Origin: Thermospira aquatica
GTDB lineage: Bacteria > Spirochaetota > Brevinematia > Brevinematales > Thermospiraceae
NCBI RefSeq assembly: GCF_023525255.1
Contig: NZ_CP073355.1
Location: forward strand, 682,001-746,000
Length of the DNA: 64,000 bases
Direction: 5' to 3'
Shown: positions 38,222 to 60,047 of the stretch, piece after piece
Numbering within the stretch: the stretch's first letter is position 1
Layout: each line of letters begins with the position of its first letter
Translations under genes and position numbers: made by a program
The notes under the pieces: generated by a model
What the model saw: the letters and a program-made list of their open reading frames with translations, nothing else
Told to the model about the DNA's origin: nothing
Database searches by the model: none

Positions 38222-38279
38222 ATCTTCTCCTTAAAGGATAAATAATAGGATAAATTTTCTTTTGCTTTTTCCAGTTAAC

Positions 38280-38308: not shown

Positions 38309-39720
38309 GAATTCGAATTGCTTCATAATAAAAGTACTCGAAAAGGGAACGTTGCTTCAAAATAAAAAAGTACTTTAAATTTGTGTAAAATAATCCAGTT
38401 CAAAGAACTGGAGGTAAAAGGTGGAGTTAGCGATGTTTGAAAGGAGACCTATTTACAGGGAAACGGCAAAACAATATCAAAAAGCCAGCAAAAAGGAAAA
38501 AATGGAGATACTGGATTATTTTGTGAGGATAACAGGTTTAAAAAACCGAAACTATGCCGCCAGGCTCTTGAGGCAGCACGGAAAAACCATCTATGTAGGG
38601 CAAAAAATTACCTTAAAGCCGATATAGCCAAAAGGGCAAAAGACCTGGCAGAAAGAAAAATTCGGCGAAGAGGAACTAAAACTTCTAAAAAAGGTCTGGG
38701 AAATTGAAAACTACATGTGTGGCAAACGTTTAAAGCCAATTTTAAATGAAGTTTTAGATAATCTCTTAGCAAACGGACATCTCCACGGTTCTCCACAGGC
38801 TATAGAAAACTTGCGCCATATAAGTGCTTCAAGTATTGACCGACTTTTGAAACATGAGCGTAAAAAGCTTGAGATAAAAGGACGAAAAGGTACAAAGCCT
38901 GGAACGCTATTAAAGCAACAAATAGCTATACGCACGTGGGCAGAGTGGGATGAAAATTGCCCTGGTTTTATGGAGATTGATCTGGTTGCCCATGAGGGAG
39001 GAAATAGCCGGGGAGATTTTGCTCAAACATTAAATATGGTGGATGTTTGGAGCGGTTGGACAGAGCTTGTGGCAATCAAAAACAAGGCTTCAAAATGGGT
39101 AAGAGAAGCCATAGAAAAAGTCAAAGGAAGACTTCCTTTTGAGTTACGGGGAATTGATTCTGATACCGGTGCTGAATTTATTAATCATCCTCTGCGTGAT
39201 TGGTGTGAGAAGTACCAGATAAAATTTACAAGGGGAGAAGCTCCGTTCCAATGATAACTGCTACGTTGAGCAGAAAAACTATTCCATAGTCCGCCAGAAT
39301 GTTGGATACTTCCGCTACGATACCGAGGAAGAAGTCTACTACTTGAACCGACTCTATGCGTATCTCAGGCTTTATGCCAACTTTTTTCAACCGGTTATGA
39401 AAATGACAGAGAAAAAGAGAATCGGAAGCAAGGTGCAAAAGAAGCATGATGATATTAAAACTCCCTACCAACGGCTTTTAGAAAGCTCTTATGTAAGTGA
39501 GGCACAAAAGGAACGCCTAACAAGGCTTTATAAGGCTCTCGATTTGTTTCACCTAAGACAAAAAATTACGGCTTGCCAGAGAAAACTTTTCAGCCTTCAA
39601 AAGAAAAAGAATGTAAAAAACAAAAATTTGGAGGAAACTGTATGGAATTTTTGAGTACTTTTTTTTATGAGGCAATGATTCGAATTTCGAGTACTTTTTT
39701 ATTTGACGCAACGGGGAATT
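38309..39720. mobile_element. Insertion sequence IS-A copy 1 (1402 bp) with 5-bp target duplication
   Basis: The element spans 38314-39715, from CGAATTGC to CAACGGG, and is flanked by GAATT at 38309-38313 and 39716-39720. Each end holds two tandem versions of a TTGCNTCA...AAAAGTACT motif, giving four related sites in all. The other full copy is at 43338-44751. It inserted 16 bp beyond the stop codon of the 39732-41597 gene and directly upstream of the ABC operon promoter. Confidence 0.9.
38421..39654 (+). pseudogene. IS-A transposase (DDE, integrase-core type), frameshifted
   Basis: The reading frame is broken into at least three pieces: 38421-38627, 38715-39254 and 39343-39654. The DDE core is recognisable: GFMEIDLVAHEG (first Asp), GIDSDTGAEFINHPL (second Asp) and NDNCYVEQKNYS (Glu). 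The breaks are near 38600 (GGG/poly-A run) and near 39235, where bases in short G and C runs are missing relative to copy 2. Complete family length would be about 410 residues. The IS family is not assigned by me. It is probably inactive unless the indels are sequencing errors. Confidence 0.85.
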
Positions 39721-39731
39721 CTCAAGAACCA

Positions 39732-41597
39732 TCACGGGATAAGCCATTGCCCGTAGACACTCTCATTCCCACTACGATCACGAGCCCGTATCTGGACATA
39801 CCCTCCAGAAAAATTAGAGATTATCAGAGTGAAACGCTCTTCACGGCTATCGTACATACCGTCTGCCGGGAAAATCTCCTGCCAATCAAGGGGAGAAACA
39901 CTGTACCATACCTGAACAATCTCACGATTATCGGAAACGAGCCACTCACATTGGAGTTTTCCCTGGACAAGGGTGGCATTAAAATTTTTGATCTGGGGGG
40001 AGGTGTGATCAATGGTAACAAAACCACTTCGCTGAAAGGCGGAGAGTACATCACGATGAGGATTGGATGGCGCATCATCCACAAGAAACTGAAACTCATA
40101 CTCTCCCTCAGGAAACATCCGTGATGAGAGTTCAAGCTGGTTGTTTGTCAGGGGTGAAGAAAACAGAGGCACCCACTTTTCCCGTCTTCGTACCGAGAGG
40201 GTATAATTCATATCATCCTCATTGGGATCACTTGCCGACCAAAAAAACACAAGCTTCTCCCCTCGCTGCATCACATCAAACTGATCAATCTTCGGTGCCT
40301 GATTCATTTGACGACCGGAGAGCTTTACCTCCTTGAGGGATGCCCTTGAAGTGGGGCTACATGAGAGTCTGACCTGAAGGTAGCGGTTAGGAGGTGAGGC
40401 TATACCCTCCTTCTGATAGGGCGCCCACTCCTCCCAGAGATCGGGAAGTAACGCCAGAGCCGAACGGCTGGAAAGTGTTACCTGTCCCAGACTCTCAAGA
40501 GAGAGGATTTTCCCCCATTGAGCCTTCTGTCCTGCATCAAACACAGGAGTAAGAATACTCCCCTCAGAAGCTGCCCTGACATCCATCTGAAAAACACGAT
40601 ACGGCTTCTCTGAAACCATATGCAAACGATCCCGAGCCGTCGCAAAAAACCTCACTCCCCCTTTCCCATAACCAGAGGCAGAAAGCTGGCCTGAAACAGG
40701 ATCATAAATAAAAAAATTCTGAAAAGCGCCAAGATAGAGTTTTCCCTGCCAGAAAAAAAGACGGTTTACCCTGCTTTGAGAAAGAGAAAAAACAAAAGAC
40801 AGAGATCCATTTTTTTCATAACGAAAAACAACAACCTCGCTTCTCTCCGTCATTTTTCGCTGAGAGCTTTGCTGGGACGTTGTTTTGTTGATAGCCACGT
40901 AGAGATTTTTCCCATCGAAGGTTATATCCTGAATAGGATCAGAAAACTCAGCCACAGCCCGAAATCGTGTTCCTCCAACAGGCAAAAGATACAAAATCGA
41001 AGATTCACCGATACAGTACAGACCATCCTCTGTCCATACCCCCTTGAGAAGATGGCGTTCATGAGAGAGACTGGCAACCCTCTGGAGTTTATTTTTTTCC
41101 AAAAGATAGAGAACGGCAGGATCCCCCGCCAAAACCCAAACCCCCCGGGAAAAGGGAATAATATCCCAGATATACGAAGAAGAAAGTGTGTAACTTGCCA
41201 CACTCTTCTCAAAACCATTGAAAAGCAAAAGACTCGCCGAAGGAGCAACCCCCACATAGACATAACTATCATCCGAGGCAAGGGCAGAAACCATCTGATA
41301 CTCAGGAAAATCCTGCTTGCGGATACTTTTGCCGTCTATCCAGAGAAGAGAAGCCTCTTCTGCCGTCCCAACAAGAAGGAAGTTTTTCCATCCGGTGGCA
41401 CTCCACAGAGGAAGATCACTCTCGTAAAGAAAATTCATGGCAAAAGAGACGGTTGCCTCACCTGTACTTGAGAGGATCACATTGCTCAGTTCATACTCTC
41501 CGATACGATTCCAATCAAACAGTGGAAAAAAAAGCGTCTCAGTGCCAAAAAAAACCTGCGCTATAACAAAAAATACCATGCCACAAAAACGTTTCAT
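39732..41597 (-). CDS. Large exported protein, beta-propeller plus Ig/FN3-like region
   Basis: A 621-residue protein with a signal peptide (MKRFCGMVFFVIAQVFFG). Residues about 60-370 show repeated blades such as SYVYVGVAPSASLLLFNG and GKLYLGAFQNFFIYDP, suggesting a seven-bladed propeller. Residues about 430-621 look like fibronectin/Ig-type strands, including SGRQMNQAPKIDQFDV and SGFVTIDHTSPQIKNFNATL. The organisation resembles envelope or secreted scaffold proteins; no enzymatic motif is visible. The IS-A copy lies just beyond its stop. Confidence 0.65.
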   Translation of the reverse strand: MKRFCGMVFFVIAQVFFGTETLFFPLFDWNRIGEYELSNVILSSTGEATVSFAMNFLYESDLPLWSATGWKNFLLVGTAEEASLLWIDGKSIRKQDFPEYQMVSALASDDSYVYVGVAPSASLLLFNGFEKSVASYTLSSSYIWDIIPFSRGVWVLAGDPAVLYLLEKNKLQRVASLSHERHLLKGVWTEDGLYCIGESSILYLLPVGGTRFRAVAEFSDPIQDITFDGKNLYVAINKTTSQQSSQRKMTERSEVVVFRYEKNGSLSFVFSLSQSRVNRLFFWQGKLYLGAFQNFFIYDPVSGQLSASGYGKGGVRFFATARDRLHMVSEKPYRVFQMDVRAASEGSILTPVFDAGQKAQWGKILSLESLGQVTLSSRSALALLPDLWEEWAPYQKEGIASPPNRYLQVRLSCSPTSRASLKEVKLSGRQMNQAPKIDQFDVMQRGEKLVFFWSASDPNEDDMNYTLSVRRREKWVPLFSSPLTNNQLELSSRMFPEGEYEFQFLVDDAPSNPHRDVLSAFQRSGFVTIDHTSPQIKNFNATLVQGKLQCEWLVSDNREIVQVWYSVSPLDWQEIFPADGMYDSREERFTLIISNFSGGYVQIRARDRSGNESVYGQWLIP

Positions 41598-41657
41598 CGC
41601 GAGCTCCTCTCCTTTTCGCTGTGCCGATTCATGCCTATAGAGCGAATCCGGTACACC

Positions 41658-41687
41658 ATTATACCACTAAGCAGGAGAAAAACGCAA
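41658..41687 (-). promoter_or_regulatory. Putative promoter of the exported propeller protein
   Basis: On the minus strand TTGCGT (41687-41682) and TATAAT (41663-41658) are spaced by 18 bp, about 60 bp before the start codon. The gap also holds the AAAGGAGAGGAG ribosome binding site. Confidence 0.45.
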
Positions 41688-41721
41688 GTTTTCAGGTGTG
41701 CCCTTTTGCCTATTGTGCCAT

Positions 41722-41815
41722 GCTCTTACCTTTTTTCAGTCCCCGGCCTTTCTTTTAAAAAAATGCTAAAAAAAGATTAAAAATTCTCTTCTGCACACTA
41801 CCACAAGGGACAAGC
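41722..41815. repeat. R1 inverted pair (degenerate)
   Basis: Plus copy GCTCTTACCTTTTTTCAGT at 41722-41740 and a weaker minus copy ACTACCACAAGGGACAAGC at 41797-41815, facing each other. The rest of the 340-bp gap between the propeller gene and tRNA-Tyr shows only the tRNA terminator. Confidence 0.6.
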
Positions 41816-41906
41816 AAATCCCACAGACAAGCAGTGTTTAAAACACCCTCATGACTGAGAGAAATTTTTTCGACAGTGACAATGAATGAAAAACTATCCT
41901 TAAAAG

Positions 41907-41940
41907 AAAACAGGCTTAGCCCTGAAAGCTAAGCCTGTTT
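41907..41940 (-). terminator. Intrinsic terminator after tRNA-Tyr
   Basis: A near-perfect hairpin with 12-bp arms (AAACAGGCTTAG and CTAAGCCTGTTT) around a 9-base loop. It begins at the discriminator base of the tRNA on the minus strand and ends in T-rich sequence. Confidence 0.85.
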
Positions 41941-42022
41941 TGGGCAGGGTTGGATTCGAACCAACGAAGGCAAGTGCCAGCAGATTTACAGTCTGCCCCC
42001 TTTGGCCACTCGGGTACCTGCC
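41940..42022 (-). tRNA. tRNA-Tyr (GTA anticodon)
   Basis: An 83-nt class-II tRNA. The acceptor stem pairs GGGCAGG with CCTGCCC, followed by discriminator A. The D arm region ACCCGAGTGGCCAAAGGG, the anticodon loop CTGTAAA in GCAGACTGTAAATCTGC, a long variable arm and GGTTCGAATCC as T arm are all visible. CCA is not encoded. Canonical features make it functional. Confidence 0.96.
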
Positions 42023-42038
42023 CGCCATAAGAGGTGTA

Positions 42039-42068
42039 TAGTATACCATATTTTGAAAAAAATGTCAA
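42039..42068 (-). promoter_or_regulatory. Promoter of tRNA-Tyr
   Basis: On the minus strand TTGACA (42068-42063) and TATACT (42044-42039) are spaced by 18 bp, ending 17 bp before the mature tRNA. A 13-bp IS-A end remnant starts 5 bp upstream of the -35 box. Confidence 0.75.
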
Positions 42069-42073
42069 GAAAA

Positions 42074-42086
42074 CGAATTGCTTCAT
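42074..42086 (+). mobile_element. Relic left end of IS-A (13 bp)
   Basis: CGAATTGCTTCAT exactly matches the first 13 bases of IS-A copies 1 and 2. It is followed at once by the end of another IS (IS-B copy A). The rest of this IS-A copy is missing, so it was interrupted or deleted after the IS-B insertion. Confidence 0.6.
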
Positions 42087-43202
42087 CTGTCAAATAAATT
42101 AAAATGTCACCTTTTTATTGAAATAGAAATGTCACTTTTTTATGCCGAAACTCTACGACCATAATCATCTATTTCAAAAAAGTTCAATTCGATATTTTTC
42201 TTAAAAATATGTATACTTCCATCAAGCCAGGTTTTTAAGATAACATTGTCCCCGGGTTTTATGGCTATAGGTTGTTTCTTTTCAATCTGGTATATTCTTT
42301 TAGAAAATTTTATTGTATAATCTCTATAGACTTTGCACTCGGCCGTATAACAAACATAGTTCCTTAAGTCCTGATCAGGCATTAATGCAATATGAAAATC
42401 TTCATCCGACAGAGGTTTTTTACTAAATTTTCGGTTATTCTTTTCCCAGTAATATTCTTTCAAAAAACGATTGGCACTGTCAATATCCTTTATGTTTTTT
42501 AGTTTCATTTCTGCTATTAACCTGTCCTGATGGATCCCATTCCATCTCTACGCGCCCTTTTGCCTGGGGACTATGGGCATATATCATTTCTATCCCCAGC
42601 CTATGGCAGACCTCTCCAAACTTTGTTAGAGGCAATTTCCTGCAAGCTGTTCTTCTATGGTCGCTTCCCGTTTCGTATAGAACAGGCTTTTATAATCACA
42701 ATAGATCGAATAAGGAATACCGTATTTCATTATCCAGTCAAACAAACATTGCAGCGCTACTTGTGTCGTTTCTCCTGTGTCGAAAAGACCGTAAGATGTG
42801 CCTGTAGCATCATCCACCATATTCATCAGACAGACTTCTTTGCCTGTCCCAAACCAGTCGTGAATGCTGCCGTCCATTTGAATCATTTCTCCAAAATGCT
42901 CTTTTCTCGGCCTTCTGGTACGGTGTTTCGCAGTTTTTCTTATTTTCTTCCACAATCCTGTTTCCATCATCCATAAACGAAGCGTTGATGCTCCTATTTT
43001 TATATGATGTTCCTCATAAAGCTTTTCAGCTATAAATGTCGGCTTAAAACCTTTATAATTATTCCGTACTATCTGCATAATTTTCTCTTTGATATCACTG
43101 CTAATTCTGTGATTCCCCGGTTTGCCTATTAATTTGTGATTGAGGGCTTCATCACCCTTTGATAAATATTCTTTAAAAATTCGAATAAGTTGCCTTCTGC
43201 AA
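42087..43202 (-). mobile_element. Insertion sequence IS-B copy A, truncated (ISNCY/IS1202-like)
   Basis: Starts with CTGTCAAATAAATT and tandem AAATGTCAC motifs, the same end as copy B (44770-46086). It carries a broken transposase reading right to left: 42140-42508 encodes the C-terminal part, and from 42626 leftward continues the catalytic part with MIQMDGSIHDWFGTGKE and MNMVDDATGTSYG. The frame is disrupted near 42540 (2-bp loss) and near 42640 (one C missing relative to copy B). At 43203 the sequence changes abruptly into an IS256-like fragment, removing the N-terminus. Confidence 0.8.
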
Positions 43203-43337
43203 GGCAGTGTATACTTAATTGTGTCTGGTAGGAAAAAGATAACCTCCTGTGATAATATAAATAAAACTATCACAGGAGGCCAGATATGATTGAGACGAAG
43301 AATATTTTAGAGCTATTCAAACCAATTGTCAAGGAAG
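43203..43337 (+). mobile_element. 5' fragment of a third IS (IS256-like), inserted in IS-B
   Basis: Begins GGCAGTGTATACTTAATTGT, which resembles the terminal repeats of IS256-family elements. It includes a hairpin with 12-bp arms, CCTCCTGTGATA (43243-43254) and TATCACAGGAGG (43268-43279), that overlaps the ribosome binding site of ATG 43286. The short frame MIETKNILELFKPIVKE continues, after removal of IS-A copy 2, at 44757-44769 before IS-B copy B cuts it. The family assignment is by end sequence only. Confidence 0.5.
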
Positions 43338-44756
43338 CGAATTGCTTCATAATAAAAGTACTCGAAAAGGGAACGTTGCTTCAAAATAAAAAAGTACTTT
43401 AAATTTGTGTAAAATAATCCAGTTCAAAGAACTGGAGGTAAAAGGTGGAATTAGCGATGTTTGAAAGGAGACCTATTTACAGGGAAACGGCGAAAGAGTA
43501 TCAAAAAGCCAGCAAAAAGGAAAAAATGGAGATACTGGATTATTTTGTGAGGATAACAGGTTTAAAAAACCGAAACTATGCCGCCAGGCTCTTGAGGCAG
43601 CACGGAAAAACCATCTATGTAGGCAAAAAAAATTACCTTAAAGCCGACATAGCCAAGAAGGGCAAAAGACCTGGCAGAAAGAAAAATTCGGCGAAGAGGA
43701 ACTAAACTTCTAAAAAGGTCTGGGAAATTGAAAACTACATGTGTGGCAAACGTTTAAAGCCAATTTTAAATGAAGTTTTAGATAATCTCTTAGCAAACGG
43801 ACATCTCCACGGTTCTCCACAGGCTATAGAAAAACTTGCGACATATGGGGCGTTTTCCTGGGCGATTGACCGACTTTTGAAAACATGAGCGTAAAAAGCT
43901 TGAGATAAAAAGGACGAAAAGGCATGCAAAAGCCTGAACGTTGTTAAAGCAACAAATAGCTATACGCACGTGGGCAGAGTGGGATGAAAATTGCCCTGGT
44001 TTTATGGAGATTGATCTGGTTGCCCATGAGGGAGGAAATAGCCGGGGAGATTTTGCTCAAACATTAAATATGGTGGATGTTTGGAGCGGTTGGACAGAGC
44101 TTGTGGCAATCAAAAACAAGGCTTCAAAATGGGTAAGAGAAGCCATAGAAAAAGTCAAAGGAAGACTTCCTTTTGATTTACGGGGAATTGATTCTGATAC
44201 CGGTGCTGAATTTATTAATCATCCTCTACGCGATTGGTGTGAGAAGCACCAGATAAAATTTACAAGGGGAAGAAGCTCCCGTTCCAATGATAACTGCTAC
44301 GTCGAGCAGAAAAACTATTCCATAGTTCGTCAGAATGTTGGGTACTTTCGCTACGATACCGACGAAGAAGTATACTTCTTGAACCAACTCTATGCGTATC
44401 TCAGGCTTTATGCCAACTTTTTTCAACCGGTTATGAAAATGACAGAGAAAAAGAGAATCGGAAGCAAGGTGCAAAAGAAGCATGATGATATTAAAACTCC
44501 CTACCAACGGCTTTTAGAAAGCTCTTATGTAAGTGAGGCACAAAAGGAACGCCTAACAAGGCTTTATAAGGCTCTCGATTTGTTTCACCTAAGACAAAAA
44601 ATTACGGCTTGCCAGAGAAAACTTTTCAGCCTTCAAAAGAAAAAGAATGTAAAAAACAAAAATTTGGAGGAAACTGTATGGAATTTTTGAGTACTTTTTT
44701 TTATGAGGCAATGATTCGAATTTCGAGTACTTTTTTATTTGACGCAACGGGGGAAG
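43333..44756. mobile_element. Insertion sequence IS-A copy 2 (1414 bp) with 5-bp target duplication
   Basis: Element 43338-44751, flanked by GGAAG at 43333-43337 and 44752-44756. Removing the element and one duplicate restores the IS256-like reading frame, which shows the order of insertion. The ends are the same as in copy 1. Confidence 0.9.
43445..44690 (+). pseudogene. IS-A transposase copy 2, frameshifted in the N-terminal half
   Basis: The N-terminal part is at 43445-43705 and the intact C-terminal part at 43941-44690 (249 residues). The latter contains all three DDE motifs: GFMEIDLVAHEG, GIDSDTGAEFIN and NDNCYVEQKN. Between them (43690-43940) single-base gains and losses in homopolymers and a divergent stretch near 43840-43860 destroy the frame. 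Copies 1 and 2 are broken at different places, so neither encodes a complete enzyme. Confidence 0.85.
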
Positions 44757-44769
44757 TATTAGAGAGTAT

Positions 44770-46086
44770 CTGTCAAATAAATTAAAATGTCACCTTTTTA
44801 TTGAAATAGAAATGTCACTTTTTTATGCCGAAACTCTACGACCACAATCATCTATTTCAAAAAAGTTCAATTCAATATTTTTCTTAAAAATATGTATACT
44901 TCCATCAAGCCAGGTTTTTAAGATAACATTGTCCCCGGGTTTTATGGCTATAGGTTGTTTCTTTTCAATCTGGTATATTCTTTTAGAAAATTTTATTGTA
45001 TAATCTCTATAGACTTTGCACTCGGCCGTATAACAAACATAGTTCCTTAAGTCCTGATCAGGCATTAATGCAATATGAAAATCTTCATCCGACAGAGGTT
45101 TTTTACTAAATTTTCGGTTATTCTTTTCCCAGTAATATTCTTTCAAAAAACGATTGGCACTGTCAATATCCTTTATGTTTTTTAGTTTCATTTCTGCTAT
45201 TAACCTGTCCTGATGGATCCCATTCCATCTCTCTGCGCCCCTTTTGCCTGGGGACTATGGGCATATATCATTTCTATCCCCAGCCTATGGCAGACCTCTC
45301 CAAACTTTGTTAGAGGCAATTTCCCTGCAAGCTGTTCTTCTATGGTCGCTTCCCGTTTCGTATAGAACAGGCTTTTATAATCACAATAGATAGAATAAGG
45401 AATACCGTATTTCATTATCCAGTCAAACAAACATTGCAGCGCTACTTGTGTCGTTTCTCCTGTGTCGAAAAGACCGTAAGATGTGCCTGTAGCATCATCC
45501 ACCATATTCATCAGACAGACTTCTTTGCCTGTCCCAAACCAGTCGTGAATGCTGCCGTCCATTTGAATCATTTCTCCAAAATGCTCTTTTCTCGGCCTTC
45601 TGGTACGGTGTTTCGCAGTTTTTCTTATTTTCTTCCACAATCCTGTTTCCATCATCCATAAACGAAGCGTTGATGCTCCTATTTTTATATGATGTTCCTC
45701 ATAAAGCTTTTCAGCTATAAATGTCGGCTTAAAACCTTTATAATTATTCCGTACTATCTGCATAATTTTCTCTTTGATATCACTGCTAATTCTGTGATTC
45801 CCCGGTTTGCCTATTAATTTGTGATTGAGGGCTTCATCACCCTTTGATAAATATTCTTTAAAAATTCGAATAAGTTGCCTTCTGCAAATCCCCAGTATTA
45901 TTGCAGCATCTTTCTGCTTGATTTTCTTGTTCTTTACCATCTCCAGTATTTTTGCCCTCTTCTGTGCTTTAAATGTCATCGTTATCACCTCTCTCATCTG
46001 CAACCTCTCGTTTTTTTAGTTGCAGTATTTTAAAAGGTGACATTTCTATTTGCACAAAGTGTGACATTTTAAATTGTTTTCGACAG
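44770..46086 (-). mobile_element. Insertion sequence IS-B copy B (1317 bp, ISNCY/IS1202-like)
   Basis: Ends CTGTCAAATAAATT and AATTGTTTTCGACAG form imperfect terminal inverted repeats. Inside each end lie two AAATGTCAC-type motifs in tandem. No target duplication is obvious. It interrupts the reading frame of the IS256-like fragment at its left end, and its right end is 13 bp from an inverted-repeat block at 46100. Confidence 0.85.
44823..45979 (-). pseudogene. IS-B transposase copy B, frameshifted near the catalytic Glu
   Basis: From ATG 45979 (GAGAGGTGATAACG upstream) the frame encodes MTFKAQKRAKILEMVKNKKI, an HTH, MIQMDGSIHDWFGTGKE (first Asp), SIYCDYKSLFYTK (second Asp) and YAHSPQAKG. 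There the frame is lost within GGGGCGC (about 45236-45245), exactly where GRVE with the catalytic Glu is expected. The C-terminal 122 residues continue in another frame at 44823-45191. Copy A is broken at the same spot by a different indel. Confidence 0.88.
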
Positions 46087-49441: not shown

Positions 49442-49596
49442 GGTCGCCGAGTAGCCCCGAAGGGGCATATCGAGGCGACCAGCAAGCGAAGCGTACCGAG
49501 GCGCGGTCACCGAGTAGCCCTGCAAGGGCGTATCGAGGCGTGGTCGCCGAGTAGTTCCGAAGGAACGTATCGAAGCGACTGCAACAAGGTAATAGC
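49442..49596. repeat. R2 palindromic repeat array abutting one R1 repeat
   Basis: R2 is a palindrome of about 37 bp: GTCGCCGAGTAG, a variable stem-loop such as CCCCGAAGGGGC, then GTATCGAGGCGAC. Full units are at 49442-49480, 49504-49541 and 49542-49579, with a partial one at 49481-49503. The last unit shares its ACT with an R1 copy (minus, 49578-49596). From 49597 to 49701 nothing else is evident. Confidence 0.88.
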
Positions 49597-49937: not shown

Positions 49938-52900
49938 ATGCACACCGATCTCTCGTTCATCACCAACGAACAAAAACAGAGCCTCAAAGAAAGGTTCAAT
50001 GTTCTCATTAAGGATACCGCTTTTTTCGACTGTCTCGTTGGCTATTTCTATCTCAGCGGATTTCATACTATCTATCCTGCCCTGGAAAAAACCGAAAAAA
50101 TCCGCATCCTCATCGGGATTGGCACCGATTCACGCACATTTCAGGCTCTCCAGGAAAAAGATTCTTTAAATCCTGAGTCTTCATCTTCTCCCCTCTCGCA
50201 TCCCGAGGTCAAAGGAAAAATAGAAACTCTTGTCAAAGAAGAAATGGAAAACTCCGAGGACACACGATCCATGGAAGAGGGGACAAAAAAATTCATCGAA
50301 TGGATAAATAGCGGAAAGCTTGAAATACGAGTCTACCCCTCACAAAAAATCCACGCCAAAATATACATCATGACCTTTCGAGAGGGGGATCGGGACACCG
50401 GGAGAGTGATCACCGGTTCAAGCAACTTTACCCAGAGCGGATTAGTAGACAACCTCGAATTCAATGTAGAACTCAAAAACCGAAGTGACTATGAGTTTTC
50501 CCGCCAGAAATTCGAAGAACTCTGGCAGAAAAGTGTTGACGTGAGTGAACGCTATGTTACCACTCTTAAAAACGAAACCTGGCTAAACCAGAACATCTCC
50601 CCCTATGAGCTGTACCTCAAATTTCTCTATGAATACTTCAAGGATCAGTTAAACCAGACAGGCGAAATTGACATGGACTACCTCCCACAAAACTTTAGAA
50701 AACTTGCCTACCAACAACAGGCCGTGCTCAATGCCAAAAAAATCCTCCTCGAATACGGTGGCGTTTTTATCTCCGATGTGGTTGGTCTGGGGAAAACCTA
50801 CATCGCGGCAATGCTTGCCAAACAATTTGACGACAGAACCCTCGTGATTGCTCCCCCTTTCCTGATAGATAAAGACAATCCCGGTTCCTGGTACAATGTG
50901 TTTGCATATTTCAATGTTTCTGCTGATTATGAATCCATCGGGAAACTGGATGATTTAAAAGATGAAAAAATAGAAAAATATAAAATATATAGAAACATCA
51001 TCATTGATGAAGCCCACCGTTTTCGCACAGAACAAACCATCACCTACGAAAATCTCGCCAAAATCTGCCGGGGGAAAAGGGTGATTCTCGTTACTGCAAC
51101 CCCTTACAACAATTCACCCAGAGATATTTTAAGCCTCATTAAACTCTTCCAAAATGCCAGAAAGAGCACCATCCCCAACGTTCCCGATCTGGAGTCGTTC
51201 TTTTCCAGACTTGAAAACAGATTAAAAAACCTGGACAGAAAAGAAAACTACACCCGGTATATTGCCACAGTAAAAGAAAACGCCAGGGAAATCCGCGACA
51301 GGATACTCAAATACCTGATGGTACGCCGAACCCGTTCGGAGATTGAGAAATACTTTAGCGAAGACCTGAAAGAACAGGGGCTCAAGTTTCCACGCGTGGA
51401 AAAACCCGTCCCCTTTTTCTATGAACTCAACGAAAAAGAAGACAAGATTTTCAACGAAACCATCCAGCTACTTGCCCGTAAGCTTACCTATGCTCGTTAC
51501 ACATCCATGCTGTATCACAAAGAAGAGATGGACGAGTTAACCAAACAGTCCCAGCGGAACATGGGAAGCTTTATGAAAATCCTTCTCGTTAAACGACTCG
51601 AGAGCAGTTTTTTCGCCTTCAAAAAATCCATAGAAAGATTCATCCACTCTTATGAAATGTTTTTGAGAGAATACGAAAAAGGCTCTGTCTATGTAAGCGC
51701 CAAACACATCAACAAAATCTTTGAGTTTCTCGAAGAAGGTGACGATAAGGCTATCGAAAAACTCCTCGAAGAAGGCAAAGCAGAAAAATATGACAGTAAA
51801 GATTTCAAAGAGGAACTCAAAAAAAACCTTGAAAACGACATCGCCATTCTGCGGAAAATCCAGGATCTCTGGCAGAATATCGACCGTGACCCCAAGCTTT
51901 TAAAATTCTTTAGCGAACTGGATAGCAACCCTGTGCTTCAAAACAACCACCTCCTTATTTTCACGGAATCCAAAGAAACCGCTCACTACCTCTACGAAAA
52001 TCTCAACAAAAAATATCCTGGAGCGGTGTTGTTGTTTACCGGGGATTCCAATAAATCCCTGAGAGAAAGGGTGATTGAAAACTTTGATGCCAACGCCATC
52101 CACAAAAAAGACACATACCGTATTTTGATAGCCACGGAAGTCCTTTCAGAAGGTGTCAACCTTCACCGCGCCAACGTTGTCATCAACTACGATATTCCAT
52201 GGAATCCAACCCGCATGATGCAGAGAGTGGGACGTATCAACCGCGTGGATACCCCTTTTGATACCATCTACACCTTTAACTTCTTCCCCACGACCCAGTC
52301 CAATGACCACATTAAACTCAGAGAAGCTGCTGAAACCAAAATCAACGCGTTTCTCACCCTTCTCGGAGGGGATGCAGAACTGTTGACCGAAGGCGAACCC
52401 ATTGGCTCCCATGAGCTTTTTGACCGCTTGACCTCACAAAAAACCCTCGAGGGCGATGAAGACTTGCAGGAAAGCGAACTCAAATACTTGAACATCATCA
52501 AAGACATCCGCCAAAAAGATCCTTACCTTTTTGACAGGATCAAAAAACTCCCCAAAAAAGCCAGAACAGCCAAAAAATACCCCGAGGAAGTACAAAAAGA
52601 TGCTCAGGACACCCCCAACCATAAAGAACTTCTCTTCTCCCCCACACAAAACGCCTGTATCACCTACTTCCGACGCGGGAAGCTCCAGAAGTTTTTCCTT
52701 GTAAAGAGTGGCGAGGAAACAGCTCGGGAGATCGATTTCATCACCGCTGCCCGTATCCTGGAAAGCACCCCCGACGAAAAAAAGATAACCCTTCCCGAGG
52801 AGAGATACGACATGCTGGACAAAAACAAGCAGGCTTTCCTGCAAGAGACCACCGAAGAAACAAGCGAACCCCAAAAGGGAGGCGGCCGAGATAGTGCTTA

Positions 52901-53210
52901 TGAAATCAGGCGAATCCTCAAAGCCTGCCTCCAAAACACCCAACAACTCACCGAAGAGCAAGAAGCTTACCTGAGAAAGGTGCTCGAACGGCTTGAGGAA
53001 GGCGCCATTATAAAATCAACCATCAAAAAAACCCTCCGCGCCCTCAACAACCTTTCCCAAGATGCTGAGAACCCCTTAACCGTGTTAAACGTTCTTCGAT
53101 CAAACATTTCAGACCATATTCTCAAAAACCACTACGCTGAAGAAAACGAAGACAAAGATTTGCCAAAGAAACGTGAAGTGATTCTCTCCCTGTATCTCAC
53201 CCACGAATAG
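49938..53210 (+). CDS. PLD-nuclease/SF2 helicase fusion of a restriction-type system
   Basis: A 1090-residue protein. The N-terminal domain is PLD-like: HAKIYIM near residue 138 and GSSNFTQSG near 158 form a single HxK-type site. The SNF2/DEAH helicase follows: Walker A DVVGLGKTYIAA near residue 281, IIDEAHRF near 355, LVTATPYNNS after it, and the second RecA domain with ILIATEVLSEGVNLHRANVV near 730 and QRVGRINR near 762. The C-terminal 250 residues are charged and helical. With the downstream methyltransferase it resembles helicase-nuclease/methylase defence modules (DISARM- or type I/III-like pairs), in which the translocating nuclease attacks unmodified DNA. The 13-bp gap indicates one operon. 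Confidence 0.88.
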   Translation: MHTDLSFITNEQKQSLKERFNVLIKDTAFFDCLVGYFYLSGFHTIYPALEKTEKIRILIGIGTDSRTFQALQEKDSLNPESSSSPLSHPEVKGKIETLVKEEMENSEDTRSMEEGTKKFIEWINSGKLEIRVYPSQKIHAKIYIMTFREGDRDTGRVITGSSNFTQSGLVDNLEFNVELKNRSDYEFSRQKFEELWQKSVDVSERYVTTLKNETWLNQNISPYELYLKFLYEYFKDQLNQTGEIDMDYLPQNFRKLAYQQQAVLNAKKILLEYGGVFISDVVGLGKTYIAAMLAKQFDDRTLVIAPPFLIDKDNPGSWYNVFAYFNVSADYESIGKLDDLKDEKIEKYKIYRNIIIDEAHRFRTEQTITYENLAKICRGKRVILVTATPYNNSPRDILSLIKLFQNARKSTIPNVPDLESFFSRLENRLKNLDRKENYTRYIATVKENAREIRDRILKYLMVRRTRSEIEKYFSEDLKEQGLKFPRVEKPVPFFYELNEKEDKIFNETIQLLARKLTYARYTSMLYHKEEMDELTKQSQRNMGSFMKILLVKRLESSFFAFKKSIERFIHSYEMFLREYEKGSVYVSAKHINKIFEFLEEGDDKAIEKLLEEGKAEKYDSKDFKEELKKNLENDIAILRKIQDLWQNIDRDPKLLKFFSELDSNPVLQNNHLLIFTESKETAHYLYENLNKKYPGAVLLFTGDSNKSLRERVIENFDANAIHKKDTYRILIATEVLSEGVNLHRANVVINYDIPWNPTRMMQRVGRINRVDTPFDTIYTFNFFPTTQSNDHIKLREAAETKINAFLTLLGGDAELLTEGEPIGSHELFDRLTSQKTLEGDEDLQESELKYLNIIKDIRQKDPYLFDRIKKLPKKARTAKKYPEEVQKDAQDTPNHKELLFSPTQNACITYFRRGKLQKFFLVKSGEETAREIDFITAARILESTPDEKKITLPEERYDMLDKNKQAFLQETTEETSEPQKGGGRDSAYEIRRILKACLQNTQQLTEEQEAYLRKVLERLEEGAIIKSTIKKTLRALNNLSQDAENPLTVLNVLRSNISDHILKNHYAEENEDKDLPKKREVILSLYLTHE

Positions 53211-53223
53211 AGAAGGAGGCTCC

Positions 53224-56200
53224 ATGAATACCGAGCAGGCAAAAAAACTTCTCAAAAAAACATTTGAAAACTCATTTGACAGGAACAATTTCCCCGAGTT
53301 TGTCAGTGAACTTCTCCACACCTTCCAGAAAATCCCTTCGTATCCTGGAGAGCTACCCATCCCCGAAACCTACAAAGACTACATCCATCGTTATGAACGA
53401 GTGGGAGAATACCACACCAAAACACACCAAATAGATATTCTCATCGTGTATTTAAACCGTCCGACCTCCCTGGAACGAGCCCGTACCATGCAGCGAAATT
53501 TTGTCGCGGGATACCTGCAGGGAAAACATGGTGGAAATAAAAACCGGGATGCGGCACTTGTGGCTTTTGTCTCCCCTGAAAGTGATACCTGGCGTTTTTC
53601 CCTGGTAAAGGTAGAATACCACCTAAAAACAAGCCAGAACAAAGGAATAAAAGTCGAAGAAAAATTCACCTCCGCAAAACGATGGTCATTTCTTCTCGGA
53701 AAAAACGAAAAAAGCCACACCGCCCAGAAACAATTTTTACCCCTTCTTGAAAATGAAAGCTCTCCACCAACCCTTCAAGATTTAGAAAAGGCATTCAACA
53801 TCGAAGTGGTCACAAAAGAATTTTACAAAGAGATTGCCAACTGGTACTTCTGGGCATTGAAAGAGTCGAGGTTTCCCGCTGATGCCGAATCAGAAACCAA
53901 TGGCAGAAACATCGCCCTCATCCGATTTATCACCCGTATTATCTTCATCTGGTTCATGAAACAAAAAGGCATTATCAGAAAAGAACTCTTTGACAGAGAA
54001 TCTCTCCAGCAAATTTTAGTAAACCTTTCTGATAATGAAGGTACCTACTACAAGGCTATCCTTCAAAACCTCTTCTTTGCAACCCTCAACACCCCCATCG
54101 AACAGAGGCGCTTCCGGAGAGAGGAGAGAGTCAACGGTTACCTCAACAAAGACTACATGAACCACAATTATTATCGATACCACACTCTCTTCAAAGATCC
54201 CAACCAGATGCAGGAACTCTTTAACGATATCCCCTTCTTAAATGGAGGGCTCTTTGAATGTCTGGACAAAAGAAAGGATGATGAGTCAAACGATGCCGGT
54301 AGAGAAATCCGCATCGACGGTTTTTCAGATGATCCCCAAAAACAACCCTATCTGCCGAATTTTTTATTCTTCTCAGATGAAAAAGAGATAGACTTAAACG
54401 ACGACTATGACACAAAAAACCAAAAATACACCGTCAGAGGGCTCATCAACATCCTCAACGGGTATAATTTTACCGTTGATGAAAACACCCCCGTCGACAT
54501 CGATGTGGCCCTCGATCCCGAACTCCTTGGAAGAGTTTTTGAAAACCTGCTTGCCAGTTACAACCCCGAGACAGCCACCACCGCAAGAAAAGCCACCGGC
54601 AGCTACTATACCCCCCGCGAGATAGTAGATTACATGGTCAAAGAATCCCTCAAAGCGTATTTTAAACAAAAGCTTCCCTCGCTCGACGAAGAAAAACTCG
54701 AACGCCTCTTCGCCTACGAGGATGAAGCCAATCCATTTGACGAAGAAACCACCAACAGGATTATCCAGGCCATTCACTCCCTCAAGATACTCGACCCCGC
54801 CGTTGGCTCGGGGGCATTCCCCATGGGCGTTTTGCATACCCTGGTGCACCTCCTCCACAAGCTTGACCCCCACAACCAAAAATGGAAAGAGATGCAGATA
54901 AAGGAGATCCAGCATATCCTCGACCCCCATATCAAACAAAATGCCCTCAACAAAATAGAGGAAAGCTTCGCCCTCAATGAACTCGACTATGGGAGAAAAC
55001 TCTATCTCATACAAAACTGTATCTACGGTGTGGATATCCAGCCCATCGCCATCCAGATAGCAAAACTGAGATTTTTCATCTCCCTGCTGGTAGACGAAAA
55101 GATCGATAAAACTCAACCTAACTACGGCATTGAAACTCTGCCAAACCTCGAAACAAAATTTGTGACGGCAAATGCTTTGATAGATTTAGAAATACCAACA
55201 ATTGATTTATTTTCTGAAAACAATCCCATTATACTTTTACAAGATAAACTTAAAGCGATACGCCACGAATACTTTATTGCAAAAACAAGAAAAGAAAAAC
55301 TTCAATTGCAACAACAGGATAAAGAAATACGCAATAAAATAGCTGTTCAAATAACTGATACCTTGAAAAAAAGAAACGAAGAAAAAGTTAAAGAATATGA
55401 GAACAAATTAGCCGAAGAAAAAAAGACACTTATTCAAATCGAATCTGGACCCCAACAAAAGAGAACTGTTGAAAGCACTAATATTTTCGGTGAAATAGAA
55501 ACCACAATTATTGACATTAAGGAACAAAGAATAAAAACCCAAAAGAATATTATTTCGAATATTAAAAGAAAGATTAACTCACTAAAATCCATCGACGCGA
55601 AAGATGTTATACAAAAAGTTGCTCAACAAATATCAAGTTTTGACCCCTACGATCCCAACTCTTTTGCCGACTGGTTCGACCCCGAATGGATGTTTGGCAT
55701 CCGGGACTGTTTCGACATCGTTATTGGCAATCCGCCGTATATTCAGCTACAAAAAAATCATGGGCAGCTGGCAGACCTTTATAAGGATAAAGGCTTTGAG
55801 ACTTTCGACCGTATGGGAGATATCTACACCCTCTTCTATGAGAGAGGGATAAACCTCCTCAAAAATAGTGGCATCCTCTGCTTCATCACCTCCAACAAAT
55901 GGATGCGGGCAGGGTATGGAAAGAAACTCCGGGAATTTTTTCTCCAGCACAATCCCCTCCTCCTCATCGATTTAGGCCCGGATGTTTTTGAGAGTGCAAC
56001 GGTAGATACCAATATCCTCCTCATCCAGAAATCCTCAAACAAACACCAGCTCAAAGCCGTCACCTACACAAAAAAAGACACCCCCATCTCAAAAGTAGTA
56101 AACGAGAAAGCCGTCACCCTCGAGAAACTCACCAAAAACGCCTGGTTTATAGGAAGTAACGCCGAGCAACGCCTCAAAGAAAAGATTGAAAAAATAGGAA

Positions 56201-57048
56201 AACCATTAAAAGATTGGGATGTAAAAATTTATTATGGAATAAGAACTGGACTAAACGAAGCCTTTATCATCACCACCGAAAAGCGAAACGAGATACTGGC
56301 TAATTGTAAAGATGCATCCGAGCGGAAACGCACCGAAGCTGTCATTAAACCTCTATTACGTGGCAGAGATATTAAACGTTATTATTATGAGTGGGCAGGG
56401 CTGTGGGTGATTGTAATTCCTGCGGGCTGGACAGATGAGAACAGAGGTAAAATACCACCAGAAAAATTTATTTTAGAACAATTTCCTTCATTAATGAAGC
56501 ATTTAAAACCCTTTGAAGAAAAAGCACAAACACGCGATGACCAGGGAGATTATTGGTGGGAACTTCGACACTGTGCCTACTACCCCGAGTTTGAGAAGGA
56601 GAAGGTGGTGTATTCAGAGATTGTAAGGAAACCACAATTTCATTTTGATACTGAAAATTTTTATGTTGAAGCAACCAGTTTTTTAATGACTGGCAAAAAT
56701 GTAAAATACATTTGTGGATTATTAAACTCAAAACCTATAACATATTTCTTTAAAAAATGGTATGCAGGAGGAGGTTTAGGTGAAGAAGGTTATAGATATA
56801 AAAAGGCATTTTTAGAAAACCTTCCTCTTCCCCCCATCACCCCAGCCAATCAGAGTATTGTAAAGCAAATAGAGGAATTGGTAGATAAGATACTGGTGAC
56901 CAAAAAATCCAACTCGCAGGCAGATACAACCACTTGGGAGAGGGAGATAGACAGGCTGGTGTACAAGCTCTATGACCGGAGTAGCTCACGGACAAGCTTT
57001 TGCGTCCACTCGGAGGGAGATAGACAGGCTGGTGTACAAGCTCTATGA
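53224..57048 (+). CDS. Large Eco57I-type adenine DNA methyltransferase with TaqI-like specificity region
   Basis: A 1274-residue protein. Residues 1-450 form an N-terminal region of unclear function. The methyltransferase core has TGSYYTPREIVDYMV near 457, LDPAVGSGAFPMG (motif I, SAM binding) near 523, YGVDIQPIAIQIAKLR (motif II) near 600, and VIGNPPYIQL (motif IV, N6-adenine) near 835. An AT-rich coiled-coil insert of about 140 residues lies at 665-800. The C-terminal half is TaqI-like target recognition. The last 20 residues are aberrant: a 38-bp sequence is repeated at 56940 and 57013 (73-bp offset), shifting the frame so that the normal end (LTDEEIKIVEGG) is lost. It would modify host DNA and set the specificity of the helicase-nuclease. 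Confidence 0.87.
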   Translation: MNTEQAKKLLKKTFENSFDRNNFPEFVSELLHTFQKIPSYPGELPIPETYKDYIHRYERVGEYHTKTHQIDILIVYLNRPTSLERARTMQRNFVAGYLQGKHGGNKNRDAALVAFVSPESDTWRFSLVKVEYHLKTSQNKGIKVEEKFTSAKRWSFLLGKNEKSHTAQKQFLPLLENESSPPTLQDLEKAFNIEVVTKEFYKEIANWYFWALKESRFPADAESETNGRNIALIRFITRIIFIWFMKQKGIIRKELFDRESLQQILVNLSDNEGTYYKAILQNLFFATLNTPIEQRRFRREERVNGYLNKDYMNHNYYRYHTLFKDPNQMQELFNDIPFLNGGLFECLDKRKDDESNDAGREIRIDGFSDDPQKQPYLPNFLFFSDEKEIDLNDDYDTKNQKYTVRGLINILNGYNFTVDENTPVDIDVALDPELLGRVFENLLASYNPETATTARKATGSYYTPREIVDYMVKESLKAYFKQKLPSLDEEKLERLFAYEDEANPFDEETTNRIIQAIHSLKILDPAVGSGAFPMGVLHTLVHLLHKLDPHNQKWKEMQIKEIQHILDPHIKQNALNKIEESFALNELDYGRKLYLIQNCIYGVDIQPIAIQIAKLRFFISLLVDEKIDKTQPNYGIETLPNLETKFVTANALIDLEIPTIDLFSENNPIILLQDKLKAIRHEYFIAKTRKEKLQLQQQDKEIRNKIAVQITDTLKKRNEEKVKEYENKLAEEKKTLIQIESGPQQKRTVESTNIFGEIETTIIDIKEQRIKTQKNIISNIKRKINSLKSIDAKDVIQKVAQQISSFDPYDPNSFADWFDPEWMFGIRDCFDIVIGNPPYIQLQKNHGQLADLYKDKGFETFDRMGDIYTLFYERGINLLKNSGILCFITSNKWMRAGYGKKLREFFLQHNPLLLIDLGPDVFESATVDTNILLIQKSSNKHQLKAVTYTKKDTPISKVVNEKAVTLEKLTKNAWFIGSNAEQRLKEKIEKIGKPLKDWDVKIYYGIRTGLNEAFIITTEKRNEILANCKDASERKRTEAVIKPLLRGRDIKRYYYEWAGLWVIVIPAGWTDENRGKIPPEKFILEQFPSLMKHLKPFEEKAQTRDDQGDYWWELRHCAYYPEFEKEKVVYSEIVRKPQFHFDTENFYVEATSFLMTGKNVKYICGLLNSKPITYFFKKWYAGGGLGEEGYRYKKAFLENLPLPPITPANQSIVKQIEELVDKILVTKKSNSQADTTTWEREIDRLVYKLYDRSSSRTSFCVHSEGDRQAGVQAL

Positions 57049-57101
57049 CCTCACGGACGAGGAGATAAAGATAGTAGAGGGGGGATAAAAAAGGAGGAGG
57101 C

Positions 57102-58655
57102 ATGAAAGGAGTGAGAATTTTATTAGACACAAACATTGTAATACACAGAGAAACGGAAAAGATAATCAATCCTGATATAGGTAAGTTATTCAACTGGCTT
57201 GATAAACTTGAAGCTAAAAAGTTTATACATCCAATTACCAAGGAAGAAATAAATAAACTTAAAGACAAAGAAAAAAGAAAAACTTTTGATGTAAAACTTG
57301 ATGCTTATACCGAATTAATAACCGCAAAAAATCTAGAAAAGCAAGTTTCCTTAGTTTCTCAACAATTTGATAAAAACGAAAATGATAAAAATGATACCTT
57401 TTTATTAAACGAAGTGTATAAAGGTTCTGTAGACTATCTAATAACTGAGGATAAAAAAATTCACCAAAAGGCAAAAGAATTGGGTATTGAAGATAGGGTT
57501 TATACAATTGAGCAATTCATAGAAAAGGTAAGTCTCGAATACCCAGATTTGGCAGATTATAAAGTTTTAAGTGTTTATAAATCATTCTTTGGCAAAAAAA
57601 ATTTATCAGATGAATTTTTCAATTCCTTTAAAGAAGACTATCAAAATTTTGAGAGTTGGTTCCGTAGAAAATCTAATGAACCAGTGTATATTTCTACTTC
57701 GAATGATGGTAAAATTGTAGCTTTTCTTTATTTAAAAGTTGAAGATAAAGATGAGAATTATACAGATATCAACCCTTCATTTCCACTTAAAAATAAAAGA
57801 TTAAAAATAGGAACCTTTAAGGTTGCATTGAACGGTTATAGATTAGGCGAAAGATTTTTAAAAATTATATTTGATAATGCTATTATACAAAAAGTTGATG
57901 AAATTTATGTGACAGTATATAATAAAAGAGATGAACAAAAAAGGTTAATTAACTTATTAGAAGAATGGGGTTTTATTTGTTGGGGAAAAAAACAATCAAC
58001 AGGCGAACTTGTATATGTTAGAGATTTTACCAAAAAATTTGATAAAAAAAATCCAAAACTTACTTATCCTTTTATTTCACTGAAAGAAAATAATAAAATT
58101 TTTATTGTACCTATTTGGCCAGATTATCATACGGAACTTTTACCTGATTCAATATTACGAACAGAGTCACCTGATGATTTTAAAGAAAATCAACCTCATC
58201 GAAATGCGATATTGAAAACTTATATTTCTCGTTCTTTAAATAGAAATATAAATAAAGGGGATATTATACTTTTTTATAGAACTGCCGAAGAAGGTAAACC
58301 TGCAAAATATTCTGCTCTTATAACAACCATAGGGATAGTTCAGGAAGTGATAGATAATTTTACTAACGAGCTAGATTTCATATTGAAAGCTGGCAAAAGA
58401 AGTATATTTAACAATGAGAAATTAAAGGAATGGTGGAATTATAACCCACAAAATAGACCTTTTTTGATTCATTTTTTACATGTATATTCTTTAACACCAA
58501 AGCAACGTTCAAAATTAATCAGGAAAAGATTGCTTGAATTGGGCATTTTATCCGGTGAAGAGAACGAACTCAGAGGATTAAAAGAAATTACAAAAGAAAA
58601 TTTTAAAACTATCATAAAAGAAGGAGGTATTAATGAAAGTTATTTTATCTATTAA
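57102..58655 (+). CDS. PIN-GNAT-PUA/EVE-like multidomain protein, probable toxin or defence effector
   Basis: A 517-residue AT-rich gene product. Residues 1-145 form a PIN ribonuclease domain with acidic residues in ILLDTNIVIHRE, KNDTFLLNEV and VDYLITEDKKIHQKAKEL. Residues about 190-310 look like GNAT (FKVALNGYRLGERFLKIIFD, then VYNKRDEQKRLINLLEEWGF). The C-terminal part, with KGDIILFYRT and PAKYSALITTIGIVQEV, resembles EVE/ASCH/PUA folds that sense modified nucleotides. It overlaps the next gene by 23 bp. Composition far below the flanking GC suggests recent acquisition. Function is inferred from domains only: RNA cleavage or modification on infection or modification loss. Confidence 0.7.
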   Translation: MKGVRILLDTNIVIHRETEKIINPDIGKLFNWLDKLEAKKFIHPITKEEINKLKDKEKRKTFDVKLDAYTELITAKNLEKQVSLVSQQFDKNENDKNDTFLLNEVYKGSVDYLITEDKKIHQKAKELGIEDRVYTIEQFIEKVSLEYPDLADYKVLSVYKSFFGKKNLSDEFFNSFKEDYQNFESWFRRKSNEPVYISTSNDGKIVAFLYLKVEDKDENYTDINPSFPLKNKRLKIGTFKVALNGYRLGERFLKIIFDNAIIQKVDEIYVTVYNKRDEQKRLINLLEEWGFICWGKKQSTGELVYVRDFTKKFDKKNPKLTYPFISLKENNKIFIVPIWPDYHTELLPDSILRTESPDDFKENQPHRNAILKTYISRSLNRNINKGDIILFYRTAEEGKPAKYSALITTIGIVQEVIDNFTNELDFILKAGKRSIFNNEKLKEWWNYNPQNRPFLIHFLHVYSLTPKQRSKLIRKRLLELGILSGEENELRGLKEITKENFKTIIKEGGINESYFIY

Positions 58656-58998
58656 GCCAGAATTCGTTGAAAAAATCATCAATGGAGAAAAAAAGTTTGA
58701 ATACAGAAGAAAAATTTTTAAAAAAGATGTAGAGAAAGTTATTATTTACGCATCTTCTCCAATAAAATTAGTAGTAGGAGAATTTATAATAGAAGATATA
58801 TTATCACGGAAACTAGATGAATTATGGGAATTAACAAAAGAAGAATCGGGTATTTCAAAACAATACTTTTATGAATATTTTAAGGGTTTAGATAATGGAT
58901 ATGCAATAAAAATTAAGGAATTTAAAAGATATGAAAAGCCATGTAATTTAAGAAATTTAAATATTTTTTATACACCACAATCATTTGTTTATATTTGA
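58633..58998 (+). CDS. ASCH/PUA-like domain protein
   Basis: A 121-residue protein. MKVILSIKPEFVEKIINGEK, then FEYRRKIFKKDVEKVIIYAS and SPIKLVVGEFIIEDI, match the ASCH-domain pattern (I-K-P-x-a-xx-I-x-xG-xK-x-xEhR). ASCH domains bind nucleic acids or modified bases, as in YqfB. It starts inside the PIN-GNAT gene with GGAGG upstream, so the two are coupled. It may be an antitoxin-like or sensing partner of that protein. Confidence 0.75.
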   Translation: MKVILSIKPEFVEKIINGEKKFEYRRKIFKKDVEKVIIYASSPIKLVVGEFIIEDILSRKLDELWELTKEESGISKQYFYEYFKGLDNGYAIKIKEFKRYEKPCNLRNLNIFYTPQSFVYI

Positions 58999-59222: not shown

Positions 59223-59392
59223 AAACAGAAAATAATTATATTGGTAGATAAAATCCGTTCTGCCCATGCCTCGATAAACGCAGCACCCGTCTACCATGCC
59301 AATACAAGCACTTGGGAAAGAGAAATAGACAGACTGGTGTACAAGCTCTATGACCTCACGGACGAGGAGATAAAGATCATAGAGGGGGGATA
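59223..59392 (+). pseudogene. Fragment of a second methyltransferase C-terminus
   Basis: In frame after the TGA, the sequence encodes LVDKIRSAHASINA and TSTWEREIDRLVYKLYD followed by LTDEEIKIIEGG, ending in TAA. This nearly matches the expected C-terminus of the methyltransferase at 53224-57048 and the sequence at 57013-57087. It is a relic left by duplication or exchange of specificity regions, now fused behind the four-helix-bundle fragment. Confidence 0.75.
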
Positions 59393-59400
59393 AAGGAAAC

Positions 59401-59494
59401 GGTCACCCAGTAGCTCCGAAGGAGCGTATTAAAACGGTCGCCGAGTAGCTACCCCCGGTCGCCGAGTAGTTCCGAAGGAACGTATCGAGGCGAC
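59401..59494. repeat. R2 palindromic repeats, left of the GIY-YIG gene
   Basis: Units at 59401-59435 (diverged at the 3' end), a partial one at 59436-59455, and a full one at 59457-59494 with the TTCCGAAGGAA stem. Between 59495 and 59558 lies GGTATA-A-TATACC (59517-59529), a palindrome over a TATAAT box that probably starts the GIY-YIG transcript. Confidence 0.85.
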
Positions 59495-59558
59495 AGCCCA
59501 AAAAACCAAAAAACATGGTATAATATACCCACCATAAAAAACACAAAAGGACCCATCA

Positions 59559-59858
59559 ATGAAAGGATACGTCTACATCCTCCGCTGCTCCGACGGCACC
59601 TACTACACAGGCAGCACAACAAACCTCGAACTCCGCCTCTCCCAACACCAAAACGGCCAGGGAGCCAACTACACAAAAAAAAGACTCCCTGTAGAACTCG
59701 TCTACTACGAAGAATACCAGCGAATCGATGAAGCATTCGCCAGAGAAAAACAAATACAAAGATGGAGCCATAAGAAAAAAGAAGCACTCATCCAGGGACA
59801 CCTCGACGACCTACCCCGCCTGGCAAAAAAAATATGGAAAAAAACACCACCCACCTAA
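59559..59858 (+). CDS. GIY-YIG nuclease-domain protein (UPF0213/YhbQ-like)
   Basis: A 99-residue single-domain GIY-YIG protein. KGYVYILRCSDGTYYTGST contains the Y-V-Y / Y-T-G core, RLSQHQNGQGANYTKKR is the Arg-containing helix, and PVELVYYEEYQRIDEAFARE gives the Glu region; the key Arg and Glu positions appear kept. The reading frame stops at TAA 59856-59858. Single-domain members act on DNA of uncertain type. It is bracketed on both sides by R2 palindromes, which may be its substrate or mobile partner. Confidence 0.88.
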   Translation: MKGYVYILRCSDGTYYTGSTTNLELRLSQHQNGQGANYTKKRLPVELVYYEEYQRIDEAFAREKQIQRWSHKKKEALIQGHLDDLPRLAKKIWKKTPPT

Positions 59859-59869
59859 CCCCACCCGCC

Positions 59870-60038
59870 CGCCGAGTAGCTCCGCAGGAGCGTATCGAGG
59901 CGACCCCGCTCGTCTCGATACGCTCCGTTACTCGACGAGCGACACCACCCGCCCGCCGAGTAGCCACCCCACGGTCGCCGAGTAGCCCCGAAGGGGCGTA
60001 TCGAGGCGACCGAGTAGCCCCGAAGGGGCATATCGAGG
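59870..60038. repeat. R2 palindromic repeats, right of the GIY-YIG gene
   Basis: Units at 59870-59904, an inverted unit at 59906-59942, a partial at 59952-59970, a full one at 59973-60011 and another overlapping it at 60011-60038. The stems vary (CTCCGCAGGAG, CCCCGAAGGGG) while the outer arms GCCGAGTAG and GTATCGAGGC are constant. They can be read through in one frame into the next gene, but this is fortuitous. Confidence 0.88.
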
Positions 60039-60047
60039 CCCGGTCAA

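Follow-up and report, generated by a model that had tools for sequence, protein, structure and literature searches.

A small GIY-YIG nuclease gene of Thermospira aquatica is paired with flanking hairpin repeats and probably encodes a nuclease of the Ssn kind

Small GIY-YIG nucleases of the Ssn family (reportedly described in Nat Commun 2025) are said to cut specific single-stranded sites and to have repeated cognate sequences with specificities that vary from member to member. The Neisseria meningitidis Ssn, which goes with the NTS repeats, is reportedly a site-specific single-strand nuclease that is tied to the control of DNA uptake and not to transposition. REPINs are inverted REP doublets that are held to be the replicating unit, the enzyme in that case being RAYT (PMC3116915), and REPs tagged with GTAG are also known (PMC3733652). 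Among the UPF0213/YhbQ-type proteins, structures have been solved for BH0048 (1zg2) and EF2693 (1ywl); both records, as seen, state no role or target.

We analyzed a 64,000-nt stretch of the T. aquatica genome (hereafter the window), which contains a 99-codon GIY-YIG gene set among copies of a palindromic repeat that we call R2. The first-pass annotation had placed this gene between two R2 arrays, and this is confirmed by the eight units listed in Table 1, of which three precede the gene on the left (an intact, a degenerate and a truncated copy) and five follow it on the right, including an inverted and a truncated copy. The encoded protein matches Pfam PF01541 with E=6.2e-20 and the UPF0213 proteins in the PDB with E=1e-15 (1zg2) and E=1.9e-13 (1ywl), placing it by sequence in the same family as these solved proteins. 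An alignment of 18 proteins shows no variation at Y6, Y16-T17-G18, R26, H30 or E63, so the catalytic residues are intact, and those of BH0048 are identical over the aligned stretch. The host genome, 2.515 Mb in one contig, has only one UPF0213-like gene; its one other GIY-YIG match falls within a 609-codon frame that is probably UvrC. Homing endonucleases of the I-TevI type also combine a GIY-YIG catalytic domain with site specificity. However, the present protein has 99 residues with neither an intron or intein nor a long DNA-binding arm, and its putative targets are many hairpins and not one allele. We rejected assignment to that group since the gene is free-standing and encodes a single domain with no separate DNA-binding domain.

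Table 1. R2 units, the GIY-YIG gene and the second R2 array, in window coordinates
Feature	Position	Strand	Remark
Second R2 array (three cores)	49446..49575	+	Left edge of defence-gene island, 49.9-59.0 kb
R2 copy, degenerate outer arms, ACCCAGTAGCTCCGAAGGAGCGTATTAAAAC	around 59401..59437	+	
Truncated R2 half, GTCGCCGAGTAGCT	around 59437..59450	+	
Intact R2 copy, inner stem TTCC/GGAA	59457..59496	+	
UPF0213-type single-domain GIY-YIG nuclease gene, putative Ssn-like	59559..59858	+	99 codons; Pfam PF01541
R2 copy, inner stem CTCC/GGAG	59867..59905	+	
Inverted R2 partner, GCTCGTCGAGTAACGGAGCGTATCGAGACGAGC	59908..59941	-	First arm of REPIN-like doublet, 22-nt spacer
Truncated R2 half	around 59951..59963	+	Second arm of the doublet, ends early after CGAGTAG
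R2 copy, inner stem CCCC/GGGG	59973..60011	+	ssDNA fold -12.0 kcal/mol, shuffles -6.05, z -3.5
R2 copy, inner stem CCCC/GGGG, GCAT variant	60005..60042	+	Left arm common with the 59973..60011 copy

R2 is also found well beyond this gene. A relaxed R2 pattern gives 4 sites in the window where shuffles predict 0.00, and a strict pattern gives 20 sites genome-wide with 0 for the reversed pattern. With a looser pattern, applied only around the 20 strict sites and within the window, we counted at least 39 distinct copies in ~12 clusters, all of them apparently extragenic. The still simpler pattern GAGTA N GTATCGA lacks the stringency needed to count sites across whole genomes of low GC content, in many of which its reversed control is equally common. 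At 1398870-1400850 of the host contig (G000:C1) two near-identical R2 arrays lie ~1.9 kb apart with similar ORFs alongside, as after a local duplication.

The R2 consensus is GGTCRC-CGAGTA-[inner hairpin]-GTATCGAG-GYGACC. In an alignment of 19 distinct long copies, 88.8% of the cells are paired even though both stems vary, and 21 cells carry two-sided pair changes compared with 8.7 in shuffles (0 of 500 as high) and 1-5 when the structure is slid out of register. The compensatory inner-stem changes noted earlier (CTCC/GGAG, CCCC/GGGG, TTCC/GGAA) are real, and the selection for hairpin structure that had been proposed from them is well supported by the two-sided changes. The accompanying statement that the outer arms are conserved did not hold, as the outer stem covaries too (GGTCGC/GCGACC, GGTCAC/GTGACC, GGTCAT/ATGACC). 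Bases that never change belong mainly to GAGTAG and TA.CGA, at the internal loop (GAGTA...TA(T/C)CGA). A fixed loop between freely varying stems is what would be expected of a site that is read by a protein. Copies with a short apex give less distinct single-strand folds (z -1.2 to -1.8). Among hairpins of the R2 type in other genomes (class D below), 20 of 55 have two or more pairs against 4.8 expected, by a strict stem-run count that misses bulged stems and those in a shifted register.

If the gene and the hairpins belong together, related genes elsewhere should stand beside similar palindromes. We collected 79 relatives from a scan of GTDB genomes and searched their surroundings for hairpins of the form stem-GAG-X-YCGA-stem'. 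Such hairpins occur within 400 bp of the gene in 44 of the 46 relatives at 60% protein identity or more, and on both sides in 31. Their density near those genes is 4.76/kb and falls ~14-fold to 0.35/kb beyond 1.5 kb, the reverse of what had been named in advance as refuting the pairing, namely repeats no commoner near GIY-YIG genes than elsewhere. Near the same genes we observed 167 hairpin sites compared with a total of 1.1 from shuffles, and four scrambled cores gave 0 sites. The motif was partly defined on tested loci, the flanks of eight having been read beforehand; hairpins are present in 36 of the 38 others. Homologues below 47% identity, mostly from Rhizobiales, are without hairpins in 26 of 27 cases. 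Bacteroidota, Spirochaetota, Verrucomicrobiota and Cloacimonadota are all represented among the relatives, and the gene and the hairpin are paired across phyla. Of the two parts of the original proposal, that of a nuclease-repeat pairing is therefore well supported by cross-genome enrichment, and that of the nuclease as a mobiliser stands as a possibility only.

We distinguish four main classes of the apex X, the part enclosed by GAG and YCGA, namely A (CGNAG), B (GNN(N)C), C (CNTG) and D (TR-hairpin-GTA, the R2 type). A single class is present in 45 of the 47 loci that have two or more classified hairpins, against a shuffled mean of 6.8 and maximum of 14. On a tree of 98 proteins, built from only 90 columns and with many forks open, the apex classes need 24 changes where the shuffled mean is 51.8 (0 of 200 as low), so the loop is specific to nuclease lineage and its classes are clustered along the protein tree. 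By itself, class D is scattered, with 8 changes for 8 rows, and loop class thus does not mark descent in a simple way. Four order-level relatives have paralogues that, within the same genome, are flanked by classes A, C or D in agreement with their protein clade (in G006 the class D hairpin was identified by visual inspection, the strict scan having found none there). Ssn homologues are said each to have a different cognate sequence, and here the apex class differs by lineage.

Repeats of the matching class also extend across whole genomes. Genomes with a class A nuclease gene are rich in class A repeats (39, 86, 382 and 13 sites); four Rhizobiales have 0-1 class A sites, and genomes of other classes have 0-10 except for one class B genome with 23. 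When any GIY-YIG hit was compared with repeat richness in 60 relatives the link was weak (p 0.027, or 0.002 for strong hits). In 5 of 20 repeat-rich relatives there was no GIY-YIG hit. Of the classes tested, R2 alone has a nuclease gene in the host genome, where we also found 35 class C hairpin cores, TGAGCNTGYCGAA, with no class C GIY-YIG gene. Because of these orphan sites and the five repeat-rich relatives lacking a hit, we conclude that repeats can exist without a detectable partner, a point against a cognate pair; the gene may have been lost, the partner may be distant, or the draft genomes may have gaps.

We consider it likely that this GIY-YIG protein belongs with the small, site-specific nucleases of the Ssn type, with R2 as its cognate DNA hairpin. 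As in the Ssn family, the protein is small and single-domain with its catalytic residues intact, and the repeat surrounds its gene on both sides and recurs through the genome. By sequence, the homologues may also differ in specificity, each matching its own repeats, as nearly all loci have a single class and the classes cluster on the protein tree. Membership is probable on these features rather than on a comparison with the Neisseria protein, from which the present system differs in its hairpin (a GAGTA-stem-GTATCGA internal loop) as well as in its bacterium. The frame common to several phyla, the lineage-matched apex and the doublets described below are results of the present analysis.

In the mechanism that we propose, the fold taken up by R2 in single-stranded DNA would have three parts, namely an outer stem, the invariant internal loop GAG...TCGA (with GTA/GTAT), and an inner hairpin unconstrained in both length and sequence. 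Most likely the internal loop and the overall shape would be read by the protein, which would cut there. Its substrate may be the single strands that arise in DNA uptake, replication or repair; binding, cutting and the preference for single strands are all predicted here from sequence. The gene and its hairpins would be inherited and transferred as a pair, each nuclease lineage having its own version of the loop, and for the cell the outcome might be that recombination or uptake is controlled at R2 sites, or else that R2 spreads.

The comparison across phyla tests independently whether small GIY-YIG nucleases each have hairpin targets of their own, and it reveals what appears to be a readable code, in which a constant GAG...YCGA frame holds a variable apex matched to nuclease lineage, and the specificity is directly testable by swapping apices between the four classes. 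A concrete question can now be asked of widespread palindromic repeats such as TTCGACTCCGCTCA, for which the literature searched names no enzyme; our searches returned no paper joining GIY-YIG with 'repetitive extragenic palindromic', and none of relevance to the letters of the repeat.

R2 shares several properties with the REP/REPIN-RAYT systems (PMC3116915, PMC3733652), as both comprise short extragenic palindromes, inverted doublets of fixed spacing and a nuclease gene that lies amid its own repeats. In the host genome an inverted R2 doublet with a constant 22-nt spacer occurs at five loci (the second arm of the window copy is truncated). In another genome (G072) there are 23 +/- pairs exactly 34 nt apart among the 72 class A sites listed, so that inverted doublets occur here as a dispersed unit, as in REPINs. 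The constant spacing of the doublets, seen at several loci, makes it probable that the repeats were spread in the form of units. The differences from REP/RAYT are that the nuclease is GIY-YIG and not HUH/Y1, that the complete host genome has no match to Y1_Tnp/RAYT (PF01797), and that classes A-C are without the GTAG tag of REPs.

These properties lead to the alternative that survives best, namely a REPIN-like mobile family in which nicking of single-stranded R2 doublets by the GIY-YIG protein would help them to copy or move, as RAYTs presumably do for REPs. It is compatible with an Ssn-type pairing, to which it adds mobilization, and we regard it as possible though rather unlikely. The location of the gene inside its own repeats, the doublets of both genomes and the lack of a Y1_Tnp/RAYT in the host all favor such a role, as does the absence of R2 from both congeners, which implies gain here or loss there. 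However, cleavage by GIY-YIG nucleases is hydrolytic and the strands are not rejoined, so that any insertion would depend on repair by the host. We saw no event of excision or insertion, and R2 may instead have arrived with islands and then been copied by recombination, many of its copies being in tandem. We advance only tentatively the broader proposal that an Ssn-type nuclease is what spreads its hairpins, in the form of REPIN-like inverted doublets, with a common stem-GAG-X-YCGA-stem' code whose X co-evolves with the nuclease across phyla. If true, bacteria would have a second, HUH-independent way to maintain populations of REP-type repeats.

Another explanation is that the hairpins are transcription terminators or mRNA stabilizers that are merely common in intergenic regions. 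This would agree with their extragenic location and with the good folding of the long copies, but such elements would not account for invariant bases that lie mostly in an internal loop while the stems vary with pairing kept, for a class that matches nuclease lineage, or for the steep drop in density away from hairpin-flanked GIY-YIG genes, and we judge it very improbable. We give next to no credence to R2 being an ordinary REP moved by a RAYT/Y1 transposase with the GIY-YIG gene as a bystander, a reading that is rejected for the host genome and largely refuted since, despite a GTAG beside the R2 inner stem as in GTAG-tagged REPs (PMC3733652) and inverted doublets like those of REPINs (PMC3116915), the complete genome has no Y1_Tnp and, in other phyla, GIY-YIG genes are flanked at strong enrichment by hairpins that share this architecture but lack GTAG.

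The protein nearest to that of T. aquatica (86% identity) is encoded in a Bacteroidetes MAG (L058), where the hairpins have the R2-type loop as well. The congener G002 encodes a protein of 76% identity; its gene is accompanied by class A hairpins, and R2 is absent. In the congener G001 both the GIY-YIG gene and R2 are lacking. This distribution suggests that gene and hairpins moved as a pair, by horizontal transfer or by exchange, and the absence of R2 from both congeners means either gain in T. aquatica or loss in the congeners.

To the right of the array, homology with the congeners starts at 60046 (G002) and 60104 (G001), directly past the last R2. The corresponding site has no island in G001 and different large ORFs in G002, so this chromosomal spot is a hotspot whatever R2 does. 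The G002 ORFs, of 957, 1113 and 1105 codons, lie at about 1-12.9 kb of the reversed sequence of locus L155. The gene that precedes the homology start in the congeners is ~191 kb away in T. aquatica, which indicates more than one rearrangement. The second R2 array lies at the left edge of a defence-like island and the GIY-YIG gene lies to the right of it; the R2 arrays may mark the edge of one movable island.

The island itself (49938-58998) encodes a PLD-SNF2 helicase, an Eco57I/type IIG-like enzyme and two proteins that match candidate defence models, the PIN-like PDC-M11A and the ASCH-domain PDC-M11B. There are three copies of the 3' end of the type IIG-like gene (56941-57089 and 59319-59394 among them), which suggests that a duplication or insertion put the PDC-M11A/B pair between copies of that gene's tail. 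Elsewhere in the window, near-identical repeats with spacings of 2.7 and 5.0 kb surround transposase-like ORFs at 38277-45620. A second repeat type, R1 (ACTGCAACAAGGTAATAGC), has 19 sites in the window that are concentrated around 22.4-24.2 kb (22426-24154), and an R1-type repeat at 49578-49596 adjoins the left R2 array.
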